Shown here one piece after another: positions 4,807 through 47,160 of a stretch of 59,870 bases of DNA (position 1 is its first letter; each line of letters opens with the position of its first letter). Location: assembly GCA_002862785.1 (NCBI GenBank), contig PKDZ01000053.1, positions 1 through 59,870 on the forward strand, read 5' to 3'. The notes beneath the pieces are model-generated. The model saw nothing but the letters and a program-made list of their open reading frames with translations. It was not told where the DNA came from and did not search any database. Made by a program: the position numbers and the translations under genes. This DNA comes from Flavobacteriales bacterium. Its GTDB lineage: Bacteria > Bacteroidota > Bacteroidia > Flavobacteriales_D > Sanyastnellaceae.

Positions 4807-4829
4807 ACGCGGCGGGCGAACTTGCGCCC

Positions 4830-5168
4830 ATGTCTGACTCCCGCACCTCCCAGATCCAGCTGAACGTGACCACCGACGCCAACAAGGTGCCGACCGCCAT
4901 CCGCTGGTCCGCCAGCGACGCCGGCATCGCAGACGCCGAGGCCAAAGCCTTCGCCTTGAGCGTCTGGAACGGCCGAGAAGCGCTGAGCATCGACCTCTGG
5001 GACAAGGACATGACCGTGGAGGAGATGAAGGTCTTTGTCTGCCAATCCATGATGACCATGGCGGACGCCCTCGAACGGTCAACGCAAGACGAACGGGCCG
5101 CCGGCGCCATCCGCGGCTTCACCTCCGAACTGGCCGAGCGCCTGGGCGTGGGACCCGCGGCCGGCTGA
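4830..5168 (+). CDS. gldC: Gliding motility protein GldC
   Basis: 112 residues, the normal size of GldC. Typical stretches are IQLNVTTDANKVPTAIRWSASDAG, the acidic SIDLWDKDMTVEEMKVFVCQSM and a C-terminal helix ending in LAERLGVGP. It has no signal peptide and is probably cytoplasmic or peripheral. In Flavobacterium loss of gldC gives a partial spreading defect. The ATG at 4830 sits 23 bases after gldB on the same strand, so they form one unit. Its stop codon abuts the stop of the convergent engB gene with no bases between them. Confidence 0.88.
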   Translation: MSDSRTSQIQLNVTTDANKVPTAIRWSASDAGIADAEAKAFALSVWNGREALSIDLWDKDMTVEEMKVFVCQSMMTMADALERSTQDERAAGAIRGFTSELAERLGVGPAAG

Positions 5169-31600: not shown

Positions 31601-33958
31601 AATGAAGACGATGACATCCGTATCAGTCACACCGTTGTCAACGTCAGCGGAAGCGCAGGTATTGAAGGTCACTTGGTAATCTTGGTCCGCGTTGAACTCA
31701 TACCAGATGGCTGCGTTGTCGGAGATGGAGTTTCCAAGGACGCTCGTGCCGTTGTACTCGTCGCCATTGGCGTTCTCGAGCGTACCGGTGAGAATCAAGT
31801 CACAGGCGATAGCCTGAGCGGTCTCCGGGTTGTCGTTGTCCGGCGGGAACTGGCAGCTTCCGTCGTCCACACTGGCGGAGATATTGTAGTTGTTGGCCTG
31901 TGGATCGGTACATCCCGGGAACGCGCAGTCGGTCACATCCGTACCACCGAAAGCAACGGGGTATGCATTCGCCTGACCGTAGGTGAGCGGGGCGTAAACG
32001 TTGCCGAGGTTGTCGGCGATGGCCCAACCCTCCGTTCCAAAGATGGCACCGGTGCTGAAGGTGTAGCAACCGATGTCGAGGCAGTTGATGACCTCCGTGG
32101 TCGTCGGACCCGGAGCCATCGTACCGGTCAGCACGGTATCACCCGTCTCCTCGTCCACCACGTAGTAGTCGTTACCGGGGCTCCAGCCCGTGCCGAAGTC
32201 ATCCTGGAGGGTGAGGTACAGACCGAGCTGTCCGTTGTCACACACAACGCAGGAACCATCGTCGATGGTGGCCGCGGGGTCGTAGTTGATGGCCGCGGTC
32301 AGCGTACAACCGCTCACACAGTTGTCAGCACTGGTACCGAAACCGATGTCGTAGACACCGAGTCCACCCGTGTGGATCACGTTGCCGGAGAAGTCCATGA
32401 TCTCCCAGATCGGCAGACCAGCCGGGGAACCGCCGCCACCGGAGAACTGGAGACAGGCATCGCTCGGGATGCAGAACTCCCAGTAACCGTCGACCACCGT
32501 GCCCTCATAATCCGGAGCGTAAAGACCGTCGAAGTAACCCGCGTTGAGGATGGTGTCGCCACCGGCCTCGTAGATGTACGCAGCATTGTTGCCCCAGTAT
32601 AGGAAGATGTCGTGATTCAGGTGAAGGATGTAGCTCGTGCTGTCACCCGCACCGGAAGCGTCACAGGACGGAGTGAAGCAAGATCCGTCATCTGCCGTGG
32701 CATCTTCATCGTAGTTGAAGGCAGTAGCATCCGTGCAACCACAAGCCACACCAGGTCCAGCCACACCAAAGGCACCAAATCCATCACCATTGGTCTGGTC
32801 ATACAGAATCTCTCCGGTATTGTAATCGATGATCTGCCACTCCTTCTCTCCTGGGAAGGAACCGCCGGCGAGCTCGAGCACGTAGCACGCCGTTTCGGAG
32901 AGACAGAAAAAATCGTAACCCTGAGAACCGGCGTCGACCGTAAACTGGGCATTGTCAAGGCTACCGGAGGCCACAGCCGTTCCGTCGCCAGTCGTCAGCG
33001 TGTAGGTGGTGCCGTCCCATCCGTCACCGAAGGTGTCGAACATCATGAACTGCACGAGGGTCTCGCCGTCCGGGCAGCTCGGGAAGACACAGCTTCCGTC
33101 ATCCACCGTGGCATTGCCGTCAAAGTTGAGGGCCGTCGCGTCGGTACAACCACAGATCTCAGCGGTCTCTCCGAAGTAGAAGTTCACGGTGCCGCCATCT
33201 TGGTCCTGAGCGATGATGTCACCGGTGTACACGTTGTACATGGTCCATGCAATCTCACCGAGGAAGCTGCCGCCACCGGAGGTGACTTCGAAGCAGGCGT
33301 TGTTCGGGATGCAGAGGGTGTCTTGTCCGAGGTTGGGACCTCCAGCCGTACCACCGCTGCCGATGATAGAAGCATCGAGAGAACCGGTGGCAATCACCGT
33401 TCCACCAACGACAATCTCGTAGATGTTGCCGTTCCAACCGTCACCCCACGTGTCGGTCATCTCGAAGAATACCATGGTCTCGGAAGAATCCGGACACTGG
33501 TCGTAAAGACAAGAGCCATCGTCGAGCGTGGCATCCATGTCATAGTTCAGAGCAGAAGTATCCGTACAACCCGGAACATCGCTGATGAGCGAGAAAGCGA
33601 ACGTGGACCCGTTACCGGCAACCGTTCCGCCACATTCACCCGTACAGTTGAACGGGGTCGGATCGAGCGACCATGTGGTGCCTCCATCTCCGAAGGTGTC
33701 GTTGATCTCCACCGTGTAATCACCAGCGCCAAACGTGGCGATGCTGAAATCGGAGGAAGTGCCTGCCCCACCGGGCCAGAGGACAGTGTTGTCCGAGACA
33801 TTAAAAATGGTGTCGCCATTAAAGGTGACAATACAAGTCGTGACCTCACCCGGCCAAGAGTCGGCCGTGAAGGTGATGGTCTGCGCCTGGAGAGACGCAA
33901 AGAGGGCCAATGCGAACGTCGCAAAAGCACCTCGGAGAATGGAAGTTCTCAGGTTCAT
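28682..33958 (-). CDS. Giant secreted cysteine-repeat protein with dockerin-like C-terminal tail (paralogue 1)
   Basis: 1758 residues from the ATG at 33958, which opens a signal peptide (MNLRTSILRGAFATFALALFASLQAQ). The protein alternates two kinds of modules. One is a short cysteine motif of the form GCTD-x2-A-x-NY-x3-A-x2-DDGSC, of which I count about 11. The other is a beta-rich module of about 100 residues with D-x-FGDGWNG and a late CYTL/CFEV strand. PPC-like beta domains (IWYEFNADQDYQVTFNTC; VWYTLDNG) occur in the middle. The last 27 residues (CPTDLNGDGQTTTSDLL then IFLGAFGTEC) resemble one calcium-binding dockerin loop. Probably a cell-surface adhesin or matrix protein exported by Sec; no T9SS type A or B domain is recognisable. 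Base composition is slightly less GC-rich than neighbours. Confidence 0.75.
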   Translation of the reverse strand: MNLRTSILRGAFATFALALFASLQAQTITFTADSWPGEVTTCIVTFNGDTIFNVSDNTVLWPGGAGTSSDFSIATFGAGDYTVEINDTFGDGGTTWSLDPTPFNCTGECGGTVAGNGSTFAFSLISDVPGCTDTSALNYDMDATLDDGSCLYDQCPDSSETMVFFEMTDTWGDGWNGNIYEIVVGGTVIATGSLDASIIGSGGTAGGPNLGQDTLCIPNNACFEVTSGGGSFLGEIAWTMYNVYTGDIIAQDQDGGTVNFYFGETAEICGCTDATALNFDGNATVDDGSCVFPSCPDGETLVQFMMFDTFGDGWDGTTYTLTTGDGTAVASGSLDNAQFTVDAGSQGYDFFCLSETACYVLELAGGSFPGEKEWQIIDYNTGEILYDQTNGDGFGAFGVAGPGVACGCTDATAFNYDEDATADDGSCFTPSCDASGAGDSTSYILHLNHDIFLYWGNNAAYIYEAGGDTILNAGYFDGLYAPDYEGTVVDGYWEFCIPSDACLQFSGGGGSPAGLPIWEIMDFSGNVIHTGGLGVYDIGFGTSADNCVSGCTLTAAINYDPAATIDDGSCVVCDNGQLGLYLTLQDDFGTGWSPGNDYYVVDEETGDTVLTGTMAPGPTTTEVINCLDIGCYTFSTGAIFGTEGWAIADNLGNVYAPLTYGQANAYPVAFGGTDVTDCAFPGCTDPQANNYNISASVDDGSCQFPPDNDNPETAQAIACDLILTGTLENANGDEYNGTSVLGNSISDNAAIWYEFNADQDYQVTFNTCASADVDNGVTDTDVIVFIENADGTLTAIATNDDSGVPGCGFGTTGTFNSIVSINAEQGNNYFVRVGTYSSFTTQTGIVIEATCASCPDGFPVNDDLCDVALPLVDGGSYDGSLCCSGPDEDFGLGSLSTFATTYGVWYQLETDTAYNLYNVTVDATGTGAVGYAIYSGEDCTDLSDLSGGVVMGSVQEEMNQWFASEQEGPVTAGVSNPAGDLNYYVYIWTTQTDECGSYSISVSAEIQGCTDATASNYNPDATVNSGCLYIGVTQPNDSCDNAIAIACGETLAGNTGGATAVGGDNACGGSGSGVWYTLDNGAQEQLITISTCGSTVATEFEVFQEVDAPDATLEVNSLNSDNYQNISAVIEFNGDTVATIPAGELFPTVFNDFYYGLSGGDYTVYFTNEGTELDGIAAAVITSDGSASPLCLGSCTTDPQVCFDLSINADTFVGETSWTITNSSGSVVASGAPSFANATNTETLCLPAGSYTLNVADSFGDGIAGTGSDDVNLTTASGDQLIVAGDVLGSGSSFDFTLEASPFNFPAGATVEQSFTIFGGTGICSSLLCWNEGDNTETMSESCDNGETFQFISDDNASTYAILVAAGSGSLGGPFDLSVTCEPVVYGCMDDMACNYNADANVDDPNAPCDFISCLGCDTETWEYCYDNNESWSFTLVNPNGGTIVVDLTGTLIEQGWDELTIDDAATGANLYNSDVDPDESLVIGTDSLTVSFTSDGSVSCVSSTTGYYISLAITCAPAPSTGCADETACNYNGPVDFADNTLCDYSCLGCTNPDAVNYNPFASVDDGSCCFGAFIEFNMFDSFGDGWNGATYTFYDAAGNAVASGDLLSTENGGDSDTDQICVDTPGCYTLIVTDGTFPGEVSWTISGAAFNNTEGGTGTYLVGLGTACTEGCTLPFAPNYVSADSVDIENNDLCDFTNYVMGCTYPDASNFDETATNDDGSCEFEIANPCPTDLNGDGQTTTSDLLIFLGAFGTEC

Positions 33959-34100
33959 GATTAAGGTTTTTTCCAATTGCCGGAGCAATATAGCGGAAAC
34001 GTCGGCGAATCCGGAAGACTTTCAGCCGCAAAATCAGGCTGTCCGAAAGACACGATTCTCAGCGTGACTCATAGAACACTGATAATCATCGGTCGGAGTC

Positions 34101-34194: not shown

Positions 34195-37100
34195 TCATTC
34201 CGTGCACGGATCACCGAAGCTGATGAGGAATTCGAGGAGGTCGGCGGTCGTCGTGGCACCGTCCTGGTTGAGGTCGGTCGGGCACGGACTCTGCAGGATG
34301 AACTCACAGGAGCCGTCGTCCTGAAGCGCCACGGAATCATAGTTCTCGGCGATGTCGTAGGTGCAACCACCACACCCCTCGAAGACGCAGTCCTCGAGCA
34401 CCGTGATGTTGGCCGTCGGGTCATAGTTGCAGGCCACAGGGACCGTACAACCGGCGATGCAGTCGGTCTCGCCCACCTCAAAATAGACGGGCGCGCTAGG
34501 GGCTCCACCCGACGTGATGCCGCTGGAGGCTCCAAGCAGGGTCCAACCGACCTCGACCGGAATCACACCAGCCGAGACCTCGAGATAATAGCACCCGTCG
34601 GCGAGACAGAAGTTGTCCGTTCCACTCGTCCCCTCGGCCGTGACGGTGAAGCCGATGCTCGGCAAGCCACCTTGGGCGAGCAACAGTCCATCCACGGAGT
34701 AAAGGCTGTACTGGGCCCCGTTCCAACCGTCACCGAAGTCGTCGGTCATCTGGAGCCGGATGCAGAAATCGTAGCAGCAGGAGCCGTCCTCGATGGTGGC
34801 GTCGTTGTCGAAGTTGCATGCTTCCGAATCGGTGCAGCCCGCGCAGGTCTCGTAATCACAGGACCCGTTGTCGGACGTGGCCGTCGCATCGTAGTTGCAG
34901 GCAATCGGATCGATGCAGCCGCACGTGACGCCGCCGAGGGAGAAGTTCACCGAGCCAATGGTACCGGACGTGATCTCACCATCCAACCCGGACAGGCTCC
35001 AGCTGATTTCCTCATCGAAATCACCTCCGCCCACGATCAGGTTGTAGCAGCCCTCGACCAGGCAGAACGTATCGAAGGCCTCGTCGCCTCCAAGGAAGTT
35101 GTCGACGTCCAAGACGTACAGGGCACTGTCGAGCGTACCGCTCAACAACGTGTCACCCATAGCATCCGTCAAGACGTAATCCGCTCCATTCCATCCGTCA
35201 CCGAAGCTGTCGTACATCTCGAGCATCAGCGGAATGCCCTCGTCGAAGCCGGCCGGACAGGTGCACCCGAGGTAGTCACAGGAACCGTCCTCGATGTTGG
35301 CGGCCGAGTCAAAGTTGCACGCCACCGAGTTGGTACACCCCTCCAGGGCGGGCGCGCAATCCAACAGCAGCTCGATCGTGCCGTTGTCGTCGGTCACCGG
35401 GTCACCATCGGCATCCTCAGCGGACACATAGGCATAATAATGGCGTCCGGGCTCAGAGATGAACTGCACCCACGCGTCATCCTGGTCGAAGAATCCGCAG
35501 TTGATGAAGTCGCTCTCCTCGGAGGCGTAAACACCCGGTTCGACCGTCAGGACGCACTCGAACAGGGCGGGAATGCCACCGGCGCACACCGCATCACTCA
35601 CATACAGGTTGAGCTTGGAGTCGATGTTGGAGCCACACAGGCTGAGCGTGTGCAGGTCGCCCGTGCCCTCGAAGGTGAACCACACGCCAGGCCCGGGAAC
35701 GGGATCACAGCCGTTGATCAGGTTGGGGGCACCCAAGTTGGTGGCACCACCCGTCGAGCCGGCCACCGGCACCCCACACTCCATCAAGGTGGCCGTGCCA
35801 CACGTGTTGTTGTCGGGCACCACGTTGAGGTAATCACAGGTGCCGTCGTCCATCGTCGCCGTGGGATCGTAGTTCGGCGCCACGGGGTCCATGCACCCGA
35901 GGTACACACCGTTGGTCACGAACTGATACTGGCCACAGTCCTCAGGGTCCGTCGTGAAGACATAGAAGAGGTAGTCCGTGTTGGGCTGAAGGACGGTGAA
36001 TTGGCTAATCTCGCCGGCACACTGCTCGGAGACCAGGCAACCCACCTGGGCCTCCAGGTCGCCACACTCGCCCACGTCGAAGATGGCGAGACCGATGTTG
36101 GCGGCACTCAAGTTCAACAGGTCGAAGAAGAAGGTCTCGTAGTCGCCGCTGTTGAACTGGAACCACGAACCGTAGCTCGTCTGGAAGCCAGCGAGGAAGC
36201 TGACGTCCACGTTGTCCGGGCTCGTGCAACAGACCGAACCGATGTGCGGCACGCCGTTCTGCAGCTCGAGGGCGGCGGAACAGTCATCGTTGATCGGCGC
36301 CCCGCTTGTGCAATCCACGCACTCGACGGACAGCAGGAATTCGTCACCACTCGTGTACTGGCTGAAGCGGGTGACATGGATGTAGTAATCCTCTCCCTGC
36401 TCCACGTTGAAGGCCACCTCACTCATGAAGCCCTCTGGACAGCCGTCGTCGTTTCCGCCGAGACACTCGAGGTTGTCGAGATCGCCGTCCACGGCCTTGA
36501 ACACGAAGACCTGGGAGTCGAAGAGCGGGTTGCCGGCGGGATTGAAGGCGTCCGTGCCACAGGTGCTCACAACCATCTGCTGGTCGGCCTGGGCGTTGAA
36601 GACATACCACACGCCGGCCGCATTGATGTCCTGACCGGAGCAGGTCGTGCCCACGAGGTCCTCGCCGTCGACCGCGTAGGTCAGCGTGCCGGAAATCTGG
36701 GCGCCGCACTGGACGGCCTGGGCGCTGTAAGCGTAGTTGTTGGAGGGCGGGCACTCACAGGAGCCATCGTCGTCCGTGGCGCTGGGATTGTAGTTGAGAC
36801 AGAAGGGGTCGGTGCAGCCAAGGAAGGTGCAGGACCCCGTCTCGCCGAAGTCGATGCCGTAGCTGCTCACTTCGTCGGTTCCCGTACCGTAGAAGTTGCC
36901 GGCCACATCCTCGAGGTACCATCCGATGTCGTCAGAATCATCTCCCGGGGTGATGTCAAAGAGGTAACATCCCGGGGCGAGACAGACGAGGTCGGTGCCG
37001 GTCGTCAGGTTGTCGCCTTGGTCCGCCTGATCGAGGGTGCCGGTTGCGGCAATGTCCCCATCGAGCTCAGAGATGTAGTAGACCCCGCCATTCCAGCCAT

Positions 37101-38646
37101 CGCCGAAGGCGTCCGTCATGCGAACCTCGAGGATGAGTTCCCCGGCCCCACAATAAATGCAGGTGCCGTCATCGATGGACGCGGTCGGCGTGAAGTTGGT
37201 GGCATTGAAATCCGTACAGCCGTAGCAGGTGAAGTTGCAGAAGCCGCTGTCGAAGATGGCGTTCGGGCTGAAGTTGCAGGCCGTCGGATCGGTACATCCC
37301 ACCGGGCAGCTCACGTCACCGAGCGTGATGCGGTCGGCACCGCTGATGAGTTGGTCTCCGAATTCCGCCTCGTCGAGGGAGCCGGTGTAGACCACCTGCC
37401 CGTCGTAGGTGGAGAAGGTGTAAATGCCATTGTTCCAACCGTCCTGAAAGCTGTCGAACATCTCGAAGTTGTAGCACCCCTCCGGCAGGCAGACCGCGTG
37501 GGTGCCGGCTCCACCGAAGTCGACCACTGTGTTGGTCTCCATGTTGCGGATGTTCCAGCTGATCTCACCGTCCCAGCTTCCGCCGCCAACCTCGAGGAAG
37601 AAGAAGTACTCCTCATAGCAGCAGGTGCCGTCGTCGTAGATGGCGGTGGCGTCGTAGTTCACCGCTCCGCTCTCGGTACATCCGTAGCAGCTGTAGTCAC
37701 AATCCCCGTTGGAAATGGTGGCCGTCTGGTCATAGTTGCAAGCCGTCGGGTCGGTGCAGCCCTGACAGCTGATGTACTCACAGCTCCCGTCGTTGAAGTT
37801 GGCGGTCGGGTCGTAGTTGCAGGCGCCTTCCGTCGTGCACCCCTCGTTGAGACAAGCGGGGTCGCCGACGAAGAAGAACTCCTCAATCGTTCCGCCTGGC
37901 ACCCCGGGGCCTCCCTCGAGAATGACCTGACCATCCCGGATGATTTCCCAGGAGGCCTCCACGGCGAGATTGTCGAAGTCGAGTTGAAGCACGTAACAAT
38001 CGTCCACAAGGCAGAGGTCGAGATCGATGGAGGCTCCATCGGTGAATTCAATGCTGCCCATTTCCATACCGGACAGGTTGCCAACTGCGGCCGAACCGAT
38101 GTTGCCCTGTCCGTCCACCCAGCCGTTCGCAAAGGCGTCATACAGGCGGACCGTCACACACGAATTGTAGCAGCAGGAGCCGTCGTTGAAACCGGCCTCC
38201 GGATCGTAGTTGCACGCCGTCTGGTCCATGCAGCCGGGAATGCCGTCGAGCTCCGTCAGGGAGAAGTTGAAAGCAGCAGCCGGACCAGCCGCCAATTCAC
38301 CCGAGCACGTTCCGCCGCAGATGAAGGGCAGATTGGTGGTGTTGACCTCGAAGCTGATGCCGCCATCGGCACCGGCGTCGAGCAGAATGATCGTGTAGGT
38401 GTCTTCCCCGTAGTCACTCAGGTCGATCGTATAGCTCTGGTTGAACCCGTTGGTGCTCCACAGTCCCCCCTCGCTGATGTTCACGATCTGGCCTTGCGTC
38501 AGGCTCGTCACCGCCACACCGTACTGGGTGGCATAGAAATCAGGATACAGGGTAATGGATTGCGACTGGGCCTGCAGTGCGAAGGCGAAGGCGACAAGCA
38601 GAATCCCCCAAGAGCGCAAGGGACGGCAAGGAAAGCGGAGCTTCAT
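34195..38646 (-). CDS. Giant secreted cysteine-repeat protein with dockerin-like C-terminal tail (paralogue 2)
   Basis: 1483 residues. Signal peptide near the N terminus (WGILLVAFAFALQAQSQS). It has the same architecture as the gene downstream: about 13 cysteine motifs (for example GCTDPTACNYDPTA, GCTDFNATNFTPTA, GCIDPIACNYDATA), several of them back to back. Between them are beta modules with AFGDGWNG/SFGDGWNG and PPC-like domains (GVWYVFNAQADQQMVVSTCG; GVWFTFEGTGDLHTLSLCG). The end, CPTDLNQDGATTTADLL then EFLISFGDPCTE, is nearly the same as in paralogue 1. A canonical Bacteroidota promoter precedes it. Likely an extracellular structural or adhesive protein; the function of either paralogue is unknown to me. 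Confidence 0.75.
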   Translation of the reverse strand: MKLRFPCRPLRSWGILLVAFAFALQAQSQSITLYPDFYATQYGVAVTSLTQGQIVNISEGGLWSTNGFNQSYTIDLSDYGEDTYTIILLDAGADGGISFEVNTTNLPFICGGTCSGELAAGPAAAFNFSLTELDGIPGCMDQTACNYDPEAGFNDGSCCYNSCVTVRLYDAFANGWVDGQGNIGSAAVGNLSGMEMGSIEFTDGASIDLDLCLVDDCYVLQLDFDNLAVEASWEIIRDGQVILEGGPGVPGGTIEEFFFVGDPACLNEGCTTEGACNYDPTANFNDGSCEYISCQGCTDPTACNYDQTATISNGDCDYSCYGCTESGAVNYDATAIYDDGTCCYEEYFFFLEVGGGSWDGEISWNIRNMETNTVVDFGGAGTHAVCLPEGCYNFEMFDSFQDGWNNGIYTFSTYDGQVVYTGSLDEAEFGDQLISGADRITLGDVSCPVGCTDPTACNFSPNAIFDSGFCNFTCYGCTDFNATNFTPTASIDDGTCIYCGAGELILEVRMTDAFGDGWNGGVYYISELDGDIAATGTLDQADQGDNLTTGTDLVCLAPGCYLFDITPGDDSDDIGWYLEDVAGNFYGTGTDEVSSYGIDFGETGSCTFLGCTDPFCLNYNPSATDDDGSCECPPSNNYAYSAQAVQCGAQISGTLTYAVDGEDLVGTTCSGQDINAAGVWYVFNAQADQQMVVSTCGTDAFNPAGNPLFDSQVFVFKAVDGDLDNLECLGGNDDGCPEGFMSEVAFNVEQGEDYYIHVTRFSQYTSGDEFLLSVECVDCTSGAPINDDCSAALELQNGVPHIGSVCCTSPDNVDVSFLAGFQTSYGSWFQFNSGDYETFFFDLLNLSAANIGLAIFDVGECGDLEAQVGCLVSEQCAGEISQFTVLQPNTDYLFYVFTTDPEDCGQYQFVTNGVYLGCMDPVAPNYDPTATMDDGTCDYLNVVPDNNTCGTATLMECGVPVAGSTGGATNLGAPNLINGCDPVPGPGVWFTFEGTGDLHTLSLCGSNIDSKLNLYVSDAVCAGGIPALFECVLTVEPGVYASEESDFINCGFFDQDDAWVQFISEPGRHYYAYVSAEDADGDPVTDDNGTIELLLDCAPALEGCTNSVACNFDSAANIEDGSCDYLGCTCPAGFDEGIPLMLEMYDSFGDGWNGADYVLTDAMGDTLLSGTLDSALYVLDVDNFLGGDEAFDTFCLVEGCYNLIVGGGDFDEEISWSLSGLDGEITSGTIGSVNFSLGGVTCGCIDPIACNYDATATSDNGSCDYETCAGCTDSEACNFDNDATIEDGSCCYDFCIRLQMTDDFGDGWNGAQYSLYSVDGLLLAQGGLPSIGFTVTAEGTSGTDNFCLADGCYYLEVSAGVIPVEVGWTLLGASSGITSGGAPSAPVYFEVGETDCIAGCTVPVACNYDPTANITVLEDCVFEGCGGCTYDIAENYDSVALQDDGSCEFILQSPCPTDLNQDGATTTADLLEFLISFGDPCTE

Positions 38647-38851: not shown

Positions 38852-39346
38852 TCAGGACCACATCTCGGCATGCCAGCTTTCGTCGAAAGCACTCACGAGC
38901 GTCCCCTTCTCCGAACGAGCGTCTGCCACAGTCTGCGCCAGCGGATCCACCACCTCGGTCGCCCCGTGGACCACCCCGGCCTTGCGCAGGGCCCAGAACT
39001 CCGCAGTGCGCGTGAACTGCCATGCCTCCTCCCCCGGCTGTCTCCACACCACCTGGTGCCGGTCGAACCAATCCACCCCGAGCGCCTCGCCCTGTGCCCG
39101 CACAAAGCCCACGAGCTTGTCGATGCTGCACCCGGTCGCCCCAGCTTGCCGCTCGTCCAGCCCGACCACGAGCACCCGGTCATACAGGATGCATCCGGCC
39201 GCCGTCAAGGCCGCCCCATGGGCCGCCCATCCATCGAGAAATCCGGAGAGCGCCTCGAGCACCGCCTCCTGCTCACCGGCCGTCAAATCGCGGTCCGCGG
39301 TGTGCACCCACAGCCGGGCATGGTCCGGCAACTCGTGAAACGTCAT
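38852..39346 (-). CDS. Conserved Bacteroidota protein of about 160 residues
   Basis: 164 residues, no signal peptide or membrane segment. It resembles a family in flavobacterial genomes often labelled 'ABC transporter ATPase', a label with no support here: no Walker A, signature or Walker B motif is present. Visible features are an acidic start (PDHARLWVHTADRDL), a central VDWFDRHQVVWRQPGEEAW and a C-terminal WHAEMWS. It follows the exosortase-associated gene by nine bases and is probably the last gene of that transcript. Function unknown. Confidence 0.6.
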   Translation of the reverse strand: MTFHELPDHARLWVHTADRDLTAGEQEAVLEALSGFLDGWAAHGAALTAAGCILYDRVLVVGLDERQAGATGCSIDKLVGFVRAQGEALGVDWFDRHQVVWRQPGEEAWQFTRTAEFWALRKAGVVHGATEVVDPLAQTVADARSEKGTLVSAFDESWHAEMWS

Positions 39347-39355
39347 GCCGTGAAA

Positions 39356-40003
39356 TTAGCGTTGTCCGGCCATCGCCCGCTCCCGCAACCACGGCAACAG
39401 CACCAGCATCAAAGACGGCATCGGCGATTGCAAGAAGCCCAACACTTCCCGGGCCACATTGTACCCCGCCTCCTCGGCTCCAGCCTGTCCGTCCACAAAC
39501 CAGAAGCCCGCGGTCAACAATCCAGCCGAAACATAAATGAGCAACAACTCCTTCCATCGGTCGGCCACCCCGGCCGCCCTCAGGAACAGCGCATCTAAGC
39601 AGAAAAAGCACAGCACGATGGCCGCCATAAGCGCCCATTTGGCCCGCGTCATCTCCTCCCGGCCCCAGCCGTGAAACACCTCATAGGTGTCTCGGGTGTA
39701 GGCTAAGTTGGTCCGGCACAGCGGCGCATAGCCATCCCACCAGCCCTTGCGCTTCTCGATCATGCAGGCGCGGTTCCATTCGCATTCCTCGTGCCCGAAA
39801 TCGTAGAAATCCGCATAGCGGTCTCCCACGGACATGTAATGGTTGAGCTTGACCTTGGTGTCTTCCTGGACATAGCCAAAGCCAAGCATGGCCGCGAGCA
39901 CCAGCGCCCACCACGGCCGCTTCCACGGCAACAGCGGCTTGCCCGCCGCAGCTCCTCCGCGCCCTCCAGCACCTCCGATTGGTCCAGCTCCTACCCCGCT
40001 CAT
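39356..40003 (-). CDS. Exosortase-associated membrane protein (inferred from position)
   Basis: 215 residues from the ATG at 40003, whose codon overlaps the exosortase stop. Gly-rich cytoplasmic start, then a membrane segment (WWALVLAAMLGFGYV). Next comes an exported loop with paired cysteines and aromatic residues (CEWNRACMIEKRKGWWDGYAPLCRTN), and two or three further membrane helices (WALMAAIVLCFFCLDALFL, LLLIYVSAGLLTAGFWFV). Flavobacterial exosortase loci commonly carry a small membrane protein right after the sortase; this gene fills that slot, but I cannot assign the named family with certainty. The extracellular cysteine loop may touch the cysteine-rich substrate. Confidence 0.55.
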   Translation of the reverse strand: MSGVGAGPIGGAGGRGGAAAGKPLLPWKRPWWALVLAAMLGFGYVQEDTKVKLNHYMSVGDRYADFYDFGHEECEWNRACMIEKRKGWWDGYAPLCRTNLAYTRDTYEVFHGWGREEMTRAKWALMAAIVLCFFCLDALFLRAAGVADRWKELLLIYVSAGLLTAGFWFVDGQAGAEEAGYNVAREVLGFLQSPMPSLMLVLLPWLRERAMAGQR

Positions 40004-40545
40004 GCCGCTGCATTTTTGGGCCCGCCATGTCCAGTCGCCTGACTGAACCGCGTCGCCCAGAGGTACCACAGCCAGAAGATGAAGCCGTACACCAACACCG
40101 TCCACGTGTAGTCGTGATTGAATTTGAGCGACTGCGGCCGATTGAACTGGATGATGACCAGGCTCACCACTCGCACCAGGTTAGCCAAGTGGATCAGCAC
40201 AATACCCGCTGGAATGAACCACAGCTTGCGTCGCGCCGGACCGGGAAAAGCGAGAATGAAGACAGTGAAGAGGGCAAACAACACAAGCCCATCACACGGC
40301 GCCCCAATCTGCAGAAGCCCCACACTGTCCGCGATGCCAATCTGCCACCGCAGCTCGGACGTGCTCACTTCATAAAGCCCGTAGCCAAGAGCGCGCAACA
40401 CCCATTCCGACGACAGCACCATCGAGTGGATCAGGTACTCATCGAGGAGCGTCTGGTCCTTTAGGAAATACTGATAGGCCACATACCACGCGAGGTATCC
40501 CACGAAGCCCAGTCCCAGAAATCGAATGAGATCGCGGTCCACCAC
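40000..40545 (-). CDS. Exosortase/archaeosortase family protease-transpeptidase
   Basis: 181 residues, GTG start, about five membrane helices. The three catalytic residues of the family are present and in order: Cys84 in GAPCDGL, Arg125 in ANLVRVV and His144 in FNHDYTW. Exosortases cut a C-terminal signal in the membrane and pass the protein on to an acceptor, usually in species making exopolysaccharide. The gene lies eight bases downstream of a protein ending in a matching C-terminal signal. It is opposite an EPS tyrosine-kinase gene. The small size is that of the Bacteroidota single-domain types (XrtF/XrtX-like) without a fused EpsI domain. Confidence 0.87.
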   Translation of the reverse strand: MVDRDLIRFLGLGFVGYLAWYVAYQYFLKDQTLLDEYLIHSMVLSSEWVLRALGYGLYEVSTSELRWQIGIADSVGLLQIGAPCDGLVLFALFTVFILAFPGPARRKLWFIPAGIVLIHLANLVRVVSLVIIQFNRPQSLKFNHDYTWTVLVYGFIFWLWYLWATRFSQATGHGGPKNAAA

Positions 40546-40553
40546 TCAGACGC

Positions 40554-40943
40554 TCAACCGCGCTCCAACTCGAGCTCCTCCTTCCGGCGCCGGATGCCAA
40601 TCACCCCAATGCCAAGCCCCCCAGCAATCAGGAAGCCCACCCCCCCATCAATCGGAATGCAACCCCCAGGTCCAAAGGTGGTTTCTGATTCATCCGTCAC
40701 CACGCCCTCCGTGTTGTTCTGATAAAACGTCATACAAGGGTCTTGCCCCAGGCCGCCACAAACTCCCGCTCCACTCGAATTGCAATCTGCTGGTTCAAAA
40801 CAGGTGGGATTACTCGAACAACTTGCAATGTCAGCGCAGAAAGCACACGTGCAATCACAACAACAATCCTGGGCCAAGGATGTCGTCGTAAACGAAAGAA
40901 CCGAGACCATTAAACCTGCCCGCAAAACACGCGTCATGAACAT
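40554..40943 (-). CDS. Cysteine-rich exported protein with PID-CTERM-like sorting signal
   Basis: 129 residues. Signal peptide (VLRAGLMVSVLSFTTTSLAQ), then a mature region with 12 cysteines, ten of them between residues 27 and 62 (starting CCCDCTCAFC), and a Ser/Thr/Glu stretch. The C terminus has the tripartite exosortase signal: PIDGG (97-101), a membrane helix (VGFLIAGGLGIGVIGI), and a basic cluster RRRK, then a short acidic tail. Similar PIDGG-type tails are called PID-CTERM in Bacteroidota. It is the first gene of the exosortase unit and probably its dedicated substrate. ATG at 40943; a second ATG at 40937 is possible. The upstream -7-like TAACTTTC ends four bases before the ATG. Confidence 0.8.
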   Translation of the reverse strand: MFMTRVLRAGLMVSVLSFTTTSLAQDCCCDCTCAFCADIASCSSNPTCFEPADCNSSGAGVCGGLGQDPCMTFYQNNTEGVVTDESETTFGPGGCIPIDGGVGFLIAGGLGIGVIGIRRRKEELELERG

Positions 40944-40978
40944 TCTTGAAAGTTAAGTCGTGCGATTCGCTTTCAAGA
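40944..40978. promoter_or_regulatory. Palindromic operator in the divergent exosortase/EPS promoter region
   Basis: TCTTGAAAG (40944-40952) and CTTTCAAGA (40970-40978) are perfect nine-base inverted arms 17 bases apart. On the minus strand the left arm overlaps the -7-like TAACTTTC (40948-40955) of the PID-CTERM gene. The right arm overlaps its -33 position and also the -33 region of the divergent tyrosine-kinase gene. A regulator bound here would act on both units. Confidence 0.5.
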
Positions 40979-40995
40979 GGAGGAAAGGGCTTGGG

Positions 40996-41003
40996 TACTT
41001 TTA
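40996..41003 (+). promoter_or_regulatory. -7 element of the EPS tyrosine-kinase gene
   Basis: TACTTTTA matches TAnnTTT(G/A) and ends four bases before the chosen ATG at 41008; TTTC at 40971-40974 lies 21 bases upstream as a possible -33. If correct, the mRNA starts at or next to the ATG (leaderless). Confidence 0.45.
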
Positions 41004-41007
41004 CCCC

Positions 41008-43428
41008 ATGCCGTCGAATCAAGTGGGTCCCACGAACAACAGTCTGAAACAACTCAGGTTGGTGCTGAAAGTAGCGGCCAAGAATTGGCTTCTTCTGCTG
41101 TTGCTGCCCAGTCTGTCATACGGGTATGGGCGGTTCGTGACCCACCAGCAACTCGATCAGCATGGAGCACAGGCGGAACTGTTGCTCGAAGAGAAAGACG
41201 AATACGACAAGGCACGCGAGGTTGTGGAGGGCGTCATCAGCCGGCGCTTTCAGCGTCAGGGGCCGGACATCGCCAACCAGGTCCGCATCCTCAAGAGCCG
41301 CGACCTCATCGCCCGGGCAGTCGGTGACCTCGACCACAACATCACGCACTTTATTGTCGGCCGTGTACGCGCCTTGCCGGTGGGCGGGCTCAGTGGCGTC
41401 GAAGTCGAAGCCTGGCCAGAGCATTTCAGCAACAATGCTCTCGGGGTGAACTTCGATTTGGAAGTCCTCGATTCAGAGCGCTACCGCCTCAGAACTGAGC
41501 TGCGCAACGGCCAGATATACGATGGCGAGCACAAATTCTACGACGTGGTGCAAACCGGGGACTTCAAGCTGTCCATCCACAGGGCGGGTGATGGGCGCGG
41601 TTCGATTGAACAGGCCATCGCACAAGGCCAGCGTTTCCAGGTGCGAAACGACGAGGACATCATCCTACAATATCGAAGCAGACTCAGCGTCAGCGGCGTA
41701 GGACAGACCAGCATCCTGAAGCTGCAGATCAACGACATCCGTCCCGAACGGGCCATTGAATTCCTGGATGCTTTGTCCAGACGCTACATTGAGTATTCAA
41801 CCGCAACCCGCGAGGCGATCAACAGCAAGACGGATGAGTTTATCGAAACCCAGCTCCTGCAAATCGAAGCCAACATCGACAGCCTGCAGGACATCATCGA
41901 CCAGCAGCGGGAAAAATCAGAGGTCATCGACCTGACCCGCAACGAGCAAGCCTATTTCCAAGAACTCGTTCAGCTCGAGACCAATCAGGAGGAATTAAGG
42001 GTCAACCTTCGAAGCCTGGGCACCCTCGAAGATTACCTCAGCAGGGGCGTGGAGAACACCAGTATTCCACCGTCAACCTTCCTATCCGCGGATGCCGTTG
42101 CCGCTGACAAAGTGAGCCAGCTCCACGACCTCCAGCTCCAACGGACACAGATGTTGCTCGACGTAACGCCCACCAGTTTTCAAATCATACGTCTCGACTC
42201 ACTCATCTCCACCACGCGCTTCAGCCTGTATAACTACATCGAATCTGCCCGACAAACCCTGCGAGAGGAAGACCAGGACCTCACCAGACGCATAGCAGAA
42301 CTGGAAGCTCGACTCTTCCGTTTGCCCAAAAGCGAGCGGCAAATCATCGCCGTGGAGCGTCGCTTGACCATCAACGACAAGTTCTTCGGTTACCTGCTCG
42401 AGCAGCGCGCAACCAACCTCATTGCCCGGGCTGCCATCACCTCCAACGCGAGCATCATCGAAGCCTCACGGGGCATCGGCATCACCGGACCCAACAAGGC
42501 CAAAACGATGCGGGACTGCACCCTCCTCGGGCTGGCTGTGGCCATCGGTCTCGCCGTGCTCCGGCTGCTCCTGTTCGAACGGTTGGAAAGCGTCAACGAA
42601 TTGCGGGAAGCCACCAAACTCCCCGTGAGCGGCGGGGTCCCCCGGTATGAAGACATCTCCGACAAAGAGTACGTCCTGGTGGCCAGCAAGAGCCCGCGCC
42701 ATCCGACCACGGAAGCGTTCAGAGGATTGAGGACAAACCTCCAATACCTGCTCAACAAGGACGGACAGAACACCATCCTCATCTCGAGCATGCACCCTGG
42801 GGAGGGCAAGACGTTCACGGCGACCAACATGGCCGCCTTGATGGCGCAGTCCGGGAAGAAGACCCTGCTCATCGACTTCGACCTTCACAAGCCCCGGGTG
42901 CACAAGGCACTGGGTGTGCCGCGCGGCACCGGCCTCAGCGGGTACCTCATCGGACAAGTGCCTTGGACCATGGCCGTCCAGCCCACGGAAATCCCGGGAC
43001 TCGACGTCATCACATCCGGTCCCGTCCCGCCGAATGCTTCCGAGCTCGTGCACAACGACCGCACCGACGAGCTCATCGCCGAAGCGAGGAAGGCCTACGA
43101 CTTCGTGGTCATCGACACCCCGCCCATCCTGATCATCACCGACGCCCTCGTTCTGATGCGGCACGTGGACAGGGCCCTGCTCGTGGCCAACGTCAAGCGA
43201 GCCAATGCGCGCGGTGTGCGCGAGCTCGAGGAACTGCTCGAGCAGAACAGCATCGAGCACGTGAGCATGGTGCTCAACGGCATCGTGCCCACCCGCTGGC
43301 GTTACTATGCCTCCAAGTACGCCTACCGCTATCTCTACAGCTACGGGTATGGCAGGTACGGCAGCTACACCGGCTACGGTGGTTACGGGTACGGCGGGGT
43401 GCGCTACGGCGAAGACGACGAAGACTGA
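41008..43428 (+). CDS. Polysaccharide chain-length regulator / bacterial tyrosine kinase (Wzc type)
   Basis: 806 residues from the ATG at 41008; a GTG at 40960 would add 16 residues before it, across the predicted promoter. N-terminal Wzz domain with a first membrane helix (NWLLLLLLPSLSYGYG), a long periplasmic helical region, a second helix near residue 515 (TLLGLAVAIGLAVLRLLLF), then the cytoplasmic BY-kinase: Walker A GEGKT (598-602), Walker A' LLIDFDLHKPR, Walker B VVIDTPP. The C-terminal 40 residues form a tyrosine cluster (15 or more Tyr) for autophosphorylation. It controls export of capsule or exopolysaccharide. Starts the EPS block and stops three bases before the asparagine-synthase gene. 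Confidence 0.92.
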   Translation: MPSNQVGPTNNSLKQLRLVLKVAAKNWLLLLLLPSLSYGYGRFVTHQQLDQHGAQAELLLEEKDEYDKAREVVEGVISRRFQRQGPDIANQVRILKSRDLIARAVGDLDHNITHFIVGRVRALPVGGLSGVEVEAWPEHFSNNALGVNFDLEVLDSERYRLRTELRNGQIYDGEHKFYDVVQTGDFKLSIHRAGDGRGSIEQAIAQGQRFQVRNDEDIILQYRSRLSVSGVGQTSILKLQINDIRPERAIEFLDALSRRYIEYSTATREAINSKTDEFIETQLLQIEANIDSLQDIIDQQREKSEVIDLTRNEQAYFQELVQLETNQEELRVNLRSLGTLEDYLSRGVENTSIPPSTFLSADAVAADKVSQLHDLQLQRTQMLLDVTPTSFQIIRLDSLISTTRFSLYNYIESARQTLREEDQDLTRRIAELEARLFRLPKSERQIIAVERRLTINDKFFGYLLEQRATNLIARAAITSNASIIEASRGIGITGPNKAKTMRDCTLLGLAVAIGLAVLRLLLFERLESVNELREATKLPVSGGVPRYEDISDKEYVLVASKSPRHPTTEAFRGLRTNLQYLLNKDGQNTILISSMHPGEGKTFTATNMAALMAQSGKKTLLIDFDLHKPRVHKALGVPRGTGLSGYLIGQVPWTMAVQPTEIPGLDVITSGPVPPNASELVHNDRTDELIAEARKAYDFVVIDTPPILIITDALVLMRHVDRALLVANVKRANARGVRELEELLEQNSIEHVSMVLNGIVPTRWRYYASKYAYRYLYSYGYGRYGSYTGYGGYGYGGVRYGEDDED

Positions 43429-43431
43429 CCG

Positions 43432-45309
43432 ATGTGCGGCATCACGGGCATCCACGGCAAGGCGGACTCCGACACCTGGGCTGCCGCGCACAGCATGACC
43501 GCCGCATTGGCCCACCGCGGACCGGATGCCGAAGGCCATTGGACGGATGACCGCAACGTCATCCTGGGCCACCGCAGGCTGAGCGTCCTCGACACCTCCG
43601 ACACGGCCAACCAACCCATGGTCAGCTGGTGTGGGCGCTACGTCATCGCCTTCAACGGGGAGGTCTACAACTACCGCGAGCTCCGGGAGGAACTCGACTA
43701 TCCCTTCAAGACATCCGGAGACACCGAAGTCGTGCTCGCCGCGCTCCGCGAGTGGGGCGTCGATGCGCTCCACCGGCTCAACGGCATGTTCGCGTTGGCC
43801 CTCTGGGATGGGCAGGAAGAGCGGCTGTTGCTGGCGAGGGACCGGATGGGCATCAAGCCCTTGTACCTGCACAGCTCCGCAGAAGGGCTATTGTGGGCCA
43901 GTGAAATCCGAAGCCTGCTGGCGTCCGGCCGGGTGGAACGCACACTGAACCGGGCCGGGGTCATCGATTTCCTGCGGTACCAAACGGTCCACGGTCCGCA
44001 CACCCTCATCGAGGGCGTGGAGATGCTGCCCGCCGGGCACCTGCTCTGGGCGGACGACAACGAAATCCGGACGGAAGCTTGGTGGGACGCGGGCAAAGCC
44101 GGTGCCGACCTCGCCGAGCAAGGGGCGCCCTGGACCTACAAGGCGGGCCCCGCGGCCAACCGCATCCGGGAGCTGCTGATGGACAGCGTGGACTTGCGGA
44201 TGCGGTCTGATGTGCCCTTCGGCGCGTTTCTGTCGGGTGGCATCGATTCCAGTGCCATTGTCGCGCTGATGTCCGAGGTGGGCGACCGGAAGGTGGCCAC
44301 CTTCAACGTGGCCTTCCACGAGGAAGAGTTTGACGAAAGCCGGTACGCCCGCATCGTGGCCCAGCGCTATGACACGGACCACCACGAGATCCGGTTGTCC
44401 GCCGATGACTTCCTGCACGCGGTGCCGGATGCGCTGGCCGCCACCGACCACCCCAGTGGCGATGGTCCGAACACCTTTGTCGTCTCCCAAGCCACCAAAC
44501 AAGCAGGCCTGACCGTCGCCCTCAGCGGATTGGGCGGGGACGAGATGTTTGCCGGCTACCCCGTCTTCCGCAGAACAGCCGACCTGCTGGACAAGCGCTG
44601 GGCCATGGCCTGGCCCCGCGGGCTCCGCAAGCTGGCCGGTGCCGCCTACCGGACTGCGCGGCCGGGCATCGCCGCCGACAAGTTTGCCACCCTCCTCACC
44701 GGGGACACCCTCAATCCTGACGCGACCTACCCCATCAGCCGCCGCGTCCTGCTCGAACCGGATGTCCGGCGCATGACCCCGTTGGCCCCTGTCGGCGACA
44801 GCGTGGCCCTGTGGTGCCGCGACGTCATGAACGCTGCCCCCGCCAAGGGGCTCCCGGTCTTCAGCCGCATCAGCCTGGCGGAGATGCACACGTACATGCA
44901 GCACGTCCTGCTGCGGGACACCGACCAAATGTCCATGGCCCATGCGCTGGAGGTTCGGGTTCCCTTCCTCGACCACCGCCTCGTCGAAACGGCCCTCGCC
45001 ATCTCCGACCCCATCAAATTCCCGCACACGCCCAAGGAACTGCTGACCCGCGCCCTTGGCGAACGGTTGCCGCGCGAGATCATCGACCGGCCCAAGATGG
45101 GCTTCACCCTGCCGTGGGACGTCTGGATGCGCGGAGCCCTCGAAACCACCTGCCGCGATGGCCTGCGAGTGCTCGTTGAGCGCGACCTGCTTCACAGCCA
45201 AGCAGCAGACGCACTTTGGTCCGCCTTCGAACAGGGCCGGACCACGTGGTCCCGGGTGTGGACCCTCGTCGCGTTGGGACAATGGATCGACCGCCATGGC
45301 CTCTCCTGA
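43432..45309 (+). CDS. asnB: Asparagine synthase (glutamine-hydrolysing) family protein
   Basis: 625 residues. Class II glutaminase domain with Cys2 (MCGITGIHG), HRGPDAEG, FNGEVYNYREL and DTEVVLAAL; synthetase domain with PP-loop LSGGIDSSAIVA and the later GLGGDEMFAGY and MSMAHALEVRVPFLDHRLVE. All catalytic residues are intact. Within polysaccharide loci such enzymes may amidate a sugar acid or an amino-acid substituent instead of making free asparagine; sequence alone does not decide. The position between a Wzc kinase and glycosyltransferases supports a polysaccharide role. The end overlaps the next gene by 14 bases. Confidence 0.9.
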   Translation: MCGITGIHGKADSDTWAAAHSMTAALAHRGPDAEGHWTDDRNVILGHRRLSVLDTSDTANQPMVSWCGRYVIAFNGEVYNYRELREELDYPFKTSGDTEVVLAALREWGVDALHRLNGMFALALWDGQEERLLLARDRMGIKPLYLHSSAEGLLWASEIRSLLASGRVERTLNRAGVIDFLRYQTVHGPHTLIEGVEMLPAGHLLWADDNEIRTEAWWDAGKAGADLAEQGAPWTYKAGPAANRIRELLMDSVDLRMRSDVPFGAFLSGGIDSSAIVALMSEVGDRKVATFNVAFHEEEFDESRYARIVAQRYDTDHHEIRLSADDFLHAVPDALAATDHPSGDGPNTFVVSQATKQAGLTVALSGLGGDEMFAGYPVFRRTADLLDKRWAMAWPRGLRKLAGAAYRTARPGIAADKFATLLTGDTLNPDATYPISRRVLLEPDVRRMTPLAPVGDSVALWCRDVMNAAPAKGLPVFSRISLAEMHTYMQHVLLRDTDQMSMAHALEVRVPFLDHRLVETALAISDPIKFPHTPKELLTRALGERLPREIIDRPKMGFTLPWDVWMRGALETTCRDGLRVLVERDLLHSQAADALWSAFEQGRTTWSRVWTLVALGQWIDRHGLS

Positions 45310-46417
45310 ACCCCGCCCTACCGTCCTGGTCGCCATCGACTGGTACCTACCGGCCTTTCGGGCCGGGGGGCCCATCCGGAGCATCGCCAACCTCGTGGCC
45401 GCCCTCGGCGATGACATCGACTTCCGCATCGTCTGTGGAGACCGGGACCTCGGCGCGAGCGAACCTCTGCCCGTTGACCTCGACACCTGGCACACGGTCG
45501 GGAAGGCCCTCGTCCTCTACCTCCCCAAAGCCGACTGGACGGCGGCGCGGTGGACCGCACTCCTCTCGGACATCCAGCCTGACCTGCTCTACCTGAACAG
45601 CCTCTACAGCGGTCCGTTCAGTCGGCTGCCCTGGAAGGTGGCCCGGGCCATGGGCACGCCGACCACGTTGGCCCCTAGGGGCATGCTCGGACCGGGCGCC
45701 TTGGCCGTCAAACCCCTCCGCAAACGCGCCTGGCTCTGGGTCCAACGGTTGACCGGCGGATACCGGGACATCCGCTGGCATGCCAGCACCGAGCAGGAGG
45801 CCGAAGAAATCCGCGCCTGGTTCCCCAACGCCAGCATCCACGTGGCGTTGAACCTGCCCGTTCCCTTCTCTCCAATGCCGTCCGACCGGCAGGCAGGCGC
45901 CCTCCGCATCCTCAGCGTCGGACGCATTCACCCGATCAAGAACTACCCCTTTGGTGTGGACGTCGCCAAGTCCCTTGTCCAAGCCGGAGTGCGCGTTGAG
46001 TACCGCATTGTCGGACCCATCGAAGACGCAGCCGAAGCCGACCGCATCCAACGGCAGTCCGAGGCGATCGAGCTCGAGCTCATCGGCCCCGTTTCTCCCG
46101 CAGAGACGGCGGATCACTTCGGGTGGGCCGACCTCGTACTGGTGCCCAGCTTCAACGAGAATTTCGGGCACGCTGTCGCCGAGGCTGTGGCGTGCGGAAA
46201 GCCCGTCATCGTCAGCGACCAGACCGCCTGGTCCGCCCTCGAGCCGGGCCACTCCGTGCGCTGCCTTCCCTTGGACCTCGAGGCCTGGACCGAGGCCGCC
46301 CAAGCGCTGCTCGACCTGTCGCCAGAAGACCTCATCGCAACCTCCGAAGACACCCACCGACGCTGCCTCCTCGGCCCGCCCCATCTTGCGGCCCAACACG
46401 CCCTGTTCACGCCATGA
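45296..46417 (+). CDS. Glycosyltransferase family 4-like (GT-B)
   Basis: 373 residues from the ATG at 45296, inside the end of asnB. N-terminal acceptor domain begins VLVAIDWYLPAFRAGGPIRSIANL with a glycine-containing loop, then the donor domain ILSVGRIHPIKNYPFGVDVAKSL, ADLVLVPSFNENFGHAVAEAVACGKPVIVSDQTAW. The last stretch is the E-x7-E nucleotide-sugar site in the variant FNENFGHAVAEA. It should transfer a sugar in exopolysaccharide assembly at the inner membrane face. Its stop overlaps the next gene by four bases. Confidence 0.88.
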   Translation: MASPEPRPTVLVAIDWYLPAFRAGGPIRSIANLVAALGDDIDFRIVCGDRDLGASEPLPVDLDTWHTVGKALVLYLPKADWTAARWTALLSDIQPDLLYLNSLYSGPFSRLPWKVARAMGTPTTLAPRGMLGPGALAVKPLRKRAWLWVQRLTGGYRDIRWHASTEQEAEEIRAWFPNASIHVALNLPVPFSPMPSDRQAGALRILSVGRIHPIKNYPFGVDVAKSLVQAGVRVEYRIVGPIEDAAEADRIQRQSEAIELELIGPVSPAETADHFGWADLVLVPSFNENFGHAVAEAVACGKPVIVSDQTAWSALEPGHSVRCLPLDLEAWTEAAQALLDLSPEDLIATSEDTHRRCLLGPPHLAAQHALFTP

Positions 46418-47160
46418 CCGTCTCCGTCGTCACCGTGACCTACAACGCCGCCCACACGGTGGCCGACGCAGTGCAGAGCGTGATCGGGCAAAAGGGCGAT
46501 TTTCACCTCGACTATCACATCGTGGACGGCGGCTCCAAGGATGGAACCCTCGAGCAGATTGAGCCCTTCAAAGACCGCATTGCCGAGATCACGACCGGTT
46601 CCGACGACGGCCTCTACGATGCCATGAACCGGGGCGTGGCCAGGGCCAAAGGCGACATCGTCGGCATCCTCAATGCCGATGACCGCTTCGCTGATGAACG
46701 GGTCATCGCCGATGTGCTCGGCGCCTTCGAAGCGACCGATGCGGATGGCATCTACGCCGACCTCGATTATGTGGATGCCCGGGATGGGGAGACCGTCACG
46801 CGGCGCTGGACTTCGGGGCAACCCGGCGACTTCCGAAAAGGGTGGATGCCGCCCCACCCGACCCTGTTTGTGCGGCGCGAAGTCTATGAGCAGCACGGCC
46901 TGTTCAACCTCAGCCTTCGGAGTGCAGCGGACTACGAGCTGATGCTGCGCTTCTTTCACTTCCGCGGGGCGGAGCTCGCCTACCTGCCGCGGGTCACCGT
47001 CAAGATGCGGGCCGGGGGACAGTCCAATGCCTCGCTGGCCAACCGGCTCAAGGCCAATGCTGAGGACGCCGAAGCCTGGCGCCTCAACGGCGCACGCCCC
47101 CCTGCCCTGCTCCGACTCCGCAAGCCGCTCAGGAAATTGGGACAGTTCGCCGGCCGTTGA
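46414..47160 (+). CDS. Glycosyltransferase family 2
   Basis: 248 residues. GT-A fold: VSVVTVTYNAAHTVADAVQSV at the N terminus, HIVDGGSKDGT with the nucleotide-binding Asp, SDDGLYDAMNRGVARAKGDIVGILNADDRF with the metal-binding D-D, and later PHPTLFVRREVYEQHGLFN. No membrane segment. It is the last gene of the EPS block, overlapping its predecessor by four bases (ATGA), and converges on guaB with 13 bases between the stops. Confidence 0.9.
   Translation: MTVSVVTVTYNAAHTVADAVQSVIGQKGDFHLDYHIVDGGSKDGTLEQIEPFKDRIAEITTGSDDGLYDAMNRGVARAKGDIVGILNADDRFADERVIADVLGAFEATDADGIYADLDYVDARDGETVTRRWTSGQPGDFRKGWMPPHPTLFVRREVYEQHGLFNLSLRSAADYELMLRFFHFRGAELAYLPRVTVKMRAGGQSNASLANRLKANAEDAEAWRLNGARPPALLRLRKPLRKLGQFAGR

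Follow-up and report, generated by a model that had tools for sequence, protein, structure and literature searches.

A single small cysteine-rich PID-CTERM protein as the predicted cargo of an exosortase X unit in a Flavobacteriales bacterium

What does an exosortase process, and to what end, if only one small cysteine-rich protein is encoded beside it? This question is raised by a locus of a marine Flavobacteriales bacterium (GCA_002862785.1), located on contig PKDZ01000053.1 and analysed here within a window of 59,870 nucleotides. Four tightly packed genes are found on the minus strand from position 40943 down to 38852, in the 5′ to 3′ order cargo, exosortase, membrane partner and 164-aa protein (Table 1). 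The cargo and exosortase genes are 8 bases apart, the partner and 164-aa genes 9 bases, and the ATG of the partner at 40003 overlaps the stop codon of the exosortase gene (ATGA). The 164-aa gene lies within the span of the unit and was absent from the description given by an earlier sequence-only reading of this DNA.

Table 1. Genes of the exosortase unit and of the adjacent EPS block, with window positions
Feature	Position	Strand	Basis
Cargo, 129-aa exported Cys-rich PID-CTERM protein	40554..40943	-	NF046080 match, dN/dS, Cys count
Exosortase X, 181 aa, Cys84/Arg125/His144	40000..40545	-	NF046081 match, triad conservation
Membrane partner, 215 aa, diverged relative of the XrtX-associated membrane protein	39356..40003	-	NF046082 below cut-off, conserved positions, structure model
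164-aa conserved protein, last gene in the tight run	38852..39346	-	Conservation beside the partner
Wzc-like polysaccharide tyrosine autokinase, divergent	40960..43428	+	TIGR01007, 163.5 bits, cut-off 108.05
Asparagine-synthase-like protein of the short EPS block	43432..45309	+	TIGR01536, 441.2 bits, cut-off 267.1
Two glycosyltransferase genes, GT4 and GT2, end of the EPS block	within 45056..47160	+	PF13692 and PF00535 over cut-off

An EPS block on the other side of the unit had been noted and is indeed present, but it is short (40960 to 47160): beyond the Wzc-like kinase, the asparagine-synthase-like gene and the GT4 and GT2 genes come IMP dehydrogenase and further genes. Neither Rfam nor a tRNA scan gave any match in the window. 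The 164-aa protein had no match in Pfam or NCBIfam; it may resemble a widespread Bacteroidota protein that is often labelled 'ABC transporter ATPase'. Further along the minus strand (34195-38646) lies the gene of a 1483-aa giant with repeated Cys modules of the GCTDPTACNYDPTA...DDGSC type, which also matched no Pfam or NCBIfam family, and an adjoining 1768-aa ORF (28682-33988, minus strand) shows partial similarity to this giant.

The exosortase belongs to the exosortase/archaeosortase superfamily, as judged by TIGR04178 (55.3 bits, cut-off 23) and the Cys/Arg/His triad, and exceeds the cut-off for exosortase X (XrtX; NF046081, 173.8 bits, 173.3 in the genome search, cut-off 170). Its scores remain below the cut-off for XrtF (TIGR04128, 83.5 bits versus 90) and below the gathering cut-off of Pfam Exosortase_EpsH (PF09721, 21.0 bits versus 25.7). 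The triad positions named in the sequence-only reading are exact and are conserved in an alignment of 94 rows, with Cys84 kept in all 94 and Arg125 and His144 in 93 each, one row being gapped at both. This kind of system is already known, as NCBIfam names all three families, XrtX, PID-CTERM (NF046080) and the XrtX-associated membrane protein (NF046082). The window has the same three gene kinds consecutively and an exosortase over the curated cut-off; it differs in that the cargo is at and the partner below its cut-off, and in the 12-Cys ectodomain of the cargo. Two Cys are typical of sister cargoes, and numerous cargoes in other families lack Cys altogether. What is added here is the Cys-rich cargo, the near one-to-one pairing of enzyme and cargo within the family and the suggested micropeptide nature of the cargo class.

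For the cargo, the earlier description of a 129-residue protein with 12 Cys, PIDGG, a membrane helix and RRRK was confirmed. A signal peptide is followed by the ectodomain, PIDGG, a hydrophobic stretch and the basic end; the mature part comprises about 75 residues, and all 12 Cys lie between signal peptide and PID. Against the NF046080 cut-off of 26, the protein reached 25.3 bits by hmmscan and 27.3 bits when the genome was searched; the cargo of a congener (G091) scored 36.8 bits. Of four congener pairs, one was saturated and the others gave dN/dS values of 0.25, 0.29 and 0.40, compared with 0.04-0.06 for XrtX (window versus congeners, four pairs). These ratios indicate a real gene that is under purifying selection but evolves fast. 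Family and PDB sequence searches revealed no recognised binding domain in the cargo (best E in the PDB search, 0.18), and its structure model is of low confidence (mean pLDDT 56.5), with the C-terminal helix alone well modelled.

The membrane partner scored 44.3 bits with NF046082, below the cut-off of 75, which none of the 114 genomes of the family reached; as it occupies the gene position of the XrtX-associated membrane protein, we describe it as a diverged relative. Conserved motifs are GFxQExxKxxxN after helix 1, KW before helix 2 and LGFLQSPxP near the C-terminus. The exported Cys loop ascribed to this protein exists, as three Cys are located between helix 1 and helix 2, but it is a local feature because Cys74 and Cys80 occur in 8 of the 69 rows aligned, and one of these 8 duplicates the window. 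Pairing of these Cys with those of the cargo was considered as a general mechanism and dropped, as they are confined to part of the genus. The structure model of the partner is confident (pLDDT 90.9). Comparison with the PDB by Foldseek and VIA-align turned up no similarity beyond a helical arrangement that many proteins share (best E with Foldseek, 1.1; best Z, 5.2, over 312 Foldseek-ranked chains), though a relative may exist. When the XrtX and XrtF partners were compared by hhalign, a probability of 25.9% and an E of 7.3e-4 were obtained; on two XrtF partners the XrtX-partner model gave 20.6 and 9.9 bits (cut-off 75).

We favour, with moderate confidence, the view that the unit serves to produce and process a single small exported peptide, which XrtX would cut at PIDGG and probably transfer to an acceptor. 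This view draws on the gene set, the XrtX match with its conserved triad, the single cargo returned by the model searches, the co-occurrence and adjacency of enzyme and cargo in relatives, the even Cys numbers, the selection on the cargo gene, the neighbouring Wzc-like kinase and the phylum sample, all described in this text. The precursor would be exported by Sec, signal peptidase would take off its N-terminus and disulfides would form in the periplasm. The C-terminal helix would tether the peptide to the inner membrane and place PIDGG at its outer face, where XrtX and the partner would cut via Cys84; cleavage by XrtX is inferred from its family membership. The new C-terminus would most likely be passed to an acceptor rather than to water. 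For this acceptor we have two guesses, an envelope lipid or a glycan of the neighbouring Wzc pathway, and one of them is probably right. The product would be a peptide about 75 residues long, with six disulfides, that is attached to the envelope or matrix and might have a role at the surface or in biofilm. Two scores count against this proposal, as the cargo lies just at the PID cut-off and the partner falls short of that for its family. The coupling of cleavage to transfer is borrowed from archaeosortase A (ArtA), a member of the same catalytic superfamily for which PMC7157517 describes cleavage coupled to lipid attachment; ArtA differs in being archaeal and in having an S-layer glycoprotein among its cargo.

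An unlikely alternative outcome is that XrtX only releases the peptide, hydrolysis freeing it from the membrane as a secreted product that is stabilised by disulfides and has no anchor. The small size of the cargo, the missing binding domain and the fast change of the ectodomain, with 37-54% identity among congeners versus 70-92% for XrtX, would suit such a product. However, the precedent in the superfamily, as described in PMC7157517, is cleavage coupled to attachment, and EPS genes adjoin the unit.

The genome of the window organism (2.44 Mb, 92 contigs, 98.5% complete) contains a single exosortase and a single PID-CTERM protein that exceed the cut-offs. The idea of an exosortase with one dedicated cargo therefore held up in the genome-wide search, and the search for further PIDGG-type C termini, proposed earlier as a check, returned this single protein. 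Classical PEP-CTERM/EpsH (XrtA) systems resemble the unit in the C-terminal motif, helix and basic tail and in their link to EPS genes, but serve many large cargoes per genome instead of a single small one. It is improbable, though conceivable, that XrtX has further cargo in the window genome which the models missed, so that the peptide would not be its sole substrate. Motif variants of relatives, namely IPIEDG, IPISDG, TPIDSG and PIDGD, do score low or escape the curated model. Against this, the search of the window genome at E ≤ 10 gave just one other, weak PID match (12.2 bits, inside a 370-aa frame), and a broader C-terminal cargo model built in this analysis from 22 rows (A5) matched only the window cargo in this genome (G000) at E ≤ 0.01.

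Among relatives with a named record, the nearest are metagenome-assembled genomes, which mostly bear the title Crocinitomicaceae, Cryomorphaceae, Flavobacteriales or Bacteroidetes bacterium (80 loci kept). Seven records (L209, L220, L244, L246, L247, L251 and L253) are titled 'Chryseobacterium gleum', yet are metagenome-assembled genomes; their XrtX is 36-51% like that of the window, and the titles look wrong. Among 114 genomes of the same family, 75 had both XrtX and cargo, 10 XrtX only, 4 cargo only and 25 neither, based on 85 genomes with XrtX at E ≤ 1e-8 and 79 with a substrate (78 by A5 at E ≤ 1e-3, plus G027). Enzyme and cargo thus co-occur near one-to-one in these genomes as judged by model matches. 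A substrate kept where the exosortase is absent had been named as the observation that would speak against the unit. The four cargo-only genomes do not provide such a case, as all stop at contig ends: in G020, G078 and G099 an XrtX-scoring fragment begins at the contig end (29, 54 and 75 bits), and in G108 the substrate gene stops 56 bases short of it. The ten genomes with XrtX but no model-found cargo (G024, G043, G053, G056, G059, G065, G070, G072, G076 and G079) count against the processing-and-transfer proposal; contig ends explain two of them (G072 and G076), while G053, G059 and G043 are 98-99% complete. A motif-filter search for a substrate near XrtX in L093, L097-L100 and L417-L419 found none.

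XrtX or its fragment adjoins the cargo in 59 of the 75 genomes that have both. In the other 16, all of genus g18, cargo and enzyme are on different contigs, which also counts against the proposal. The wider neighbourhood was compared in 20 large loci, several of them cut by contig ends and four from g18 with cargo and enzyme apart. In 13 of these 20, a Wzc-like kinase lies divergently beside cargo or XrtX, in line with the earlier claim of an association with EPS genes; the seven loci without it comprise the four of g18, two cut by contig ends and one (L073) with neither Wzc nor the 164-aa protein in reach. No Wzc was found near XrtX in the g18 loci examined, a further point against the proposal. 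The 164-aa protein follows the partner in 12 of the 20 loci and is itself followed by a giant Cys-repeat protein like that at 34195-38646 of the window. In 11 of 13 g18 loci (L068, L070, L105, L106, L108-L110 and L112-L115, but not L107 and L111), a convergent ORF that weakly resembles the Cys-repeat giant adjoins the cargo. In L096 (G098), at about 3769-5457, cargo, XrtX and partner are each split into fragments in different frames, owing to assembly errors or decay. Because the XrtX score exceeds its cut-off, the cargo is under purifying selection and the gene order recurs in other genera, the unit is beyond chance.

Cargo size and Cys content vary considerably among relatives. In most sister genera, the stretch from signal peptide to PIDGG has about 25 residues and two Cys, of the type (Q)DAPFPDSGGTPCDGPFGPVCPIDGG. 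A rough script for cutting the signal peptide gave two Cys in 18 of 21 sister-genus rows; in L074, L122 and L123 it cut wrongly, and each has two Cys when cut by hand. Elsewhere in the phylum, genomes encode 1 to 9 PID proteins, and in 30 loci inspected (L162-L191) many are Cys-free with about 14-16 residues from signal peptide to PID end, longer ones occurring in L166 and L174 among some. Cys-rich ectodomains of 34-89 residues up to PID were found in genera g1 (that of the window), g18, g19 and g21 and in genome G022. With mature starts set by hand, all 30 of these Cys-rich cargoes, many of them close relatives, have an even number of Cys (8 in 15, 10 in 7, 6 in 5 and 12 in 3); automatic cutting gave an even count in 28, and the odd ones, L081 and L028, run into contig ends. 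Such paired changes suggest disulfides in the Cys-rich cargoes and favour them over metal binding. On the other hand, since the cargo in most sister genera has just two Cys in about 25 residues and numerous PID proteins from other families are Cys-free, Cys richness appears to be a lineage elaboration that does not define the XrtX/PID system. This weakens what the sequence-only reading had inferred from the Cys-rich nature of the protein. The comparison of relatives points to tiny peptides as the usual cargo of this exosortase group. A rival reading, in which the small PID protein would serve the exosortase, the partner or the Wzc machine as a subunit or regulator instead of being processed as cargo, is very improbable: near one-to-one pairing, adjacency in most genomes and the tiny size in many relatives would fit such a role, but up to 9 PID proteins accompany one XrtX match in genomes of other families, unlinked copies exist and very variable ectodomains surround a constant PID-helix-basic tail.

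A sample of 392 genomes of the phylum was searched with the XrtX and PID-CTERM models. XrtX-model matches (E ≤ 1e-20, XrtF-type enzymes included) were obtained in 103 and PID-CTERM matches (E ≤ 5e-4) in 65 of them. An XrtX-model match was present in 61 of the 65 PID-CTERM genomes, the exceptions being G146, G234, G461 and G490; conversely, 42 of the 103 XrtX-model genomes had no PID match at E ≤ 5e-4, and that only 61 of 103 had one counts against the proposal. XrtF-type exosortases score roughly 90-120 bits on the XrtX model. In the large family f6, weak PID matches were often on short Pro-rich ORFs. Since TIGR04128, which takes its name from Fjoh_1448, is frequent in f6, we regard this family as Flavobacteriaceae or a close neighbour. 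The XrtF system (TIGR04128 and TIGR04127; Flavobacterium johnsoniae Fjoh_1448/1449) is a sister exosortase type, likewise with a small membrane partner.

A model of 18 short Pro-rich ORFs (A4) and TIGR04128 were run on the same 199 genomes. At E ≤ 1e-3, the A4 peptide was detected in 126 of 128 XrtF-positive genomes; G527 and G645 were missed, but G527 carries the peptide at the usual place, which brings the count to 127 and leaves G645 as the exception. Among the 71 XrtF-negative genomes it was detected in one (G671), the best value among the other 70 being 0.00175. With six seed genomes left out, the peptide was found in 120 of 122 XrtF genomes versus 1 of 71 without XrtF. In 19 of 20 loci inspected (exception L338), its gene directly adjoins the 3′ end of ribE in convergent orientation, and pdxA flanks ribE on the opposite side; the candidate XrtF-target genes at this place are those of L335-L354 (except L338) and L357. 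Of 70 XrtF-free, peptide-free genomes, 28 were probed via PdxA: 26 have RibE beside PdxA, and none of these 26 flanks (764-857 bases each) contains a peptide 3′ of RibE, whereas L371 and L372 have no neighbouring RibE. In G671 (L380), too, no RibE lies beside PdxA. With the NCBIfam PID model, each of the 18 A4 members gives a hit at E ≤ 1; at E ≤ 0.1 it did not report the peptide of the g27 genome L354. Unlike the cargo of the window, which adjoins XrtX, the XrtF candidate peptide is unlinked and proline-rich.

On a PdxA tree with 49 of the 199 genomes, the XrtF label needs 4 changes, 2 of them forced by starred branches, and because these changes are few, the table largely reflects one XrtF-free clade. 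Two independent pairs on starred branches are available: the peptide follows XrtF in one, and the other, involving G671 (95% complete, 120 contigs), shows no difference. A sign test on two such pairs cannot reach significance, and the p-value of 2.7e-50 was rejected as proof of the XrtF-peptide link, given 4 label changes and one agreeing pair of two. Further XrtF-free, peptide-free branches on the best tree are G571, G598 together with G538, and G570, the last on a long branch of unsure place. Beyond the table, the link rests on these branches and on the shared motif-helix-tail design, and its phylogenetically independent support is thin.

Taken together, we lean slightly towards reading XrtX and XrtF as exosortases dedicated to micropeptides and not as ordinary protein sorters. 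Such a micropeptide would consist of a signal peptide, about 12-80 exported residues (proline-rich, two-Cys or Cys-rich), a PID motif, a helix and a basic tail, and the XrtF target would be the short proline-rich PID peptide usually encoded convergently beside ribE. According to PMC10936215, XrtF is needed for biofilm and surface colonisation, and the passages of PMC12188702 that concern XrtF describe its targets as not yet known. In the phenotype table of PMC10936215, deletions of xrtF, of the partner Fjoh_1449 and of the hypothetical Fjoh_0651 share a row with reduced sand colonisation, strongly reduced biofilm and absent zorbs. As Fjoh_0334, porZ and porU are also in this row, the match between xrtF and Fjoh_0651 is non-specific. 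The fragment that complemented Fjoh_0651 measured 434 bp including the promoter (PMC10936215), so that the encoded protein must be small, and we predict that Fjoh_0651 encodes a PID micropeptide. Among the matches listed in a literature search, none dealt with the biology of XrtX or PID-CTERM or with the target of XrtF, as judged by titles and abstract starts.

Should this enzyme group indeed have a single tiny peptide as its cargo, the identity of the target, the chemistry of the acceptor and the EPS link would become tractable, as only a short gene would have to be deleted and a short peptide weighed. Tiny-peptide cargo perhaps extends to XrtF, the related enzyme that is required for biofilm. 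The lineage of the window, in turn, would show how a small cargo peptide can grow into a disulfide-rich mini-domain.
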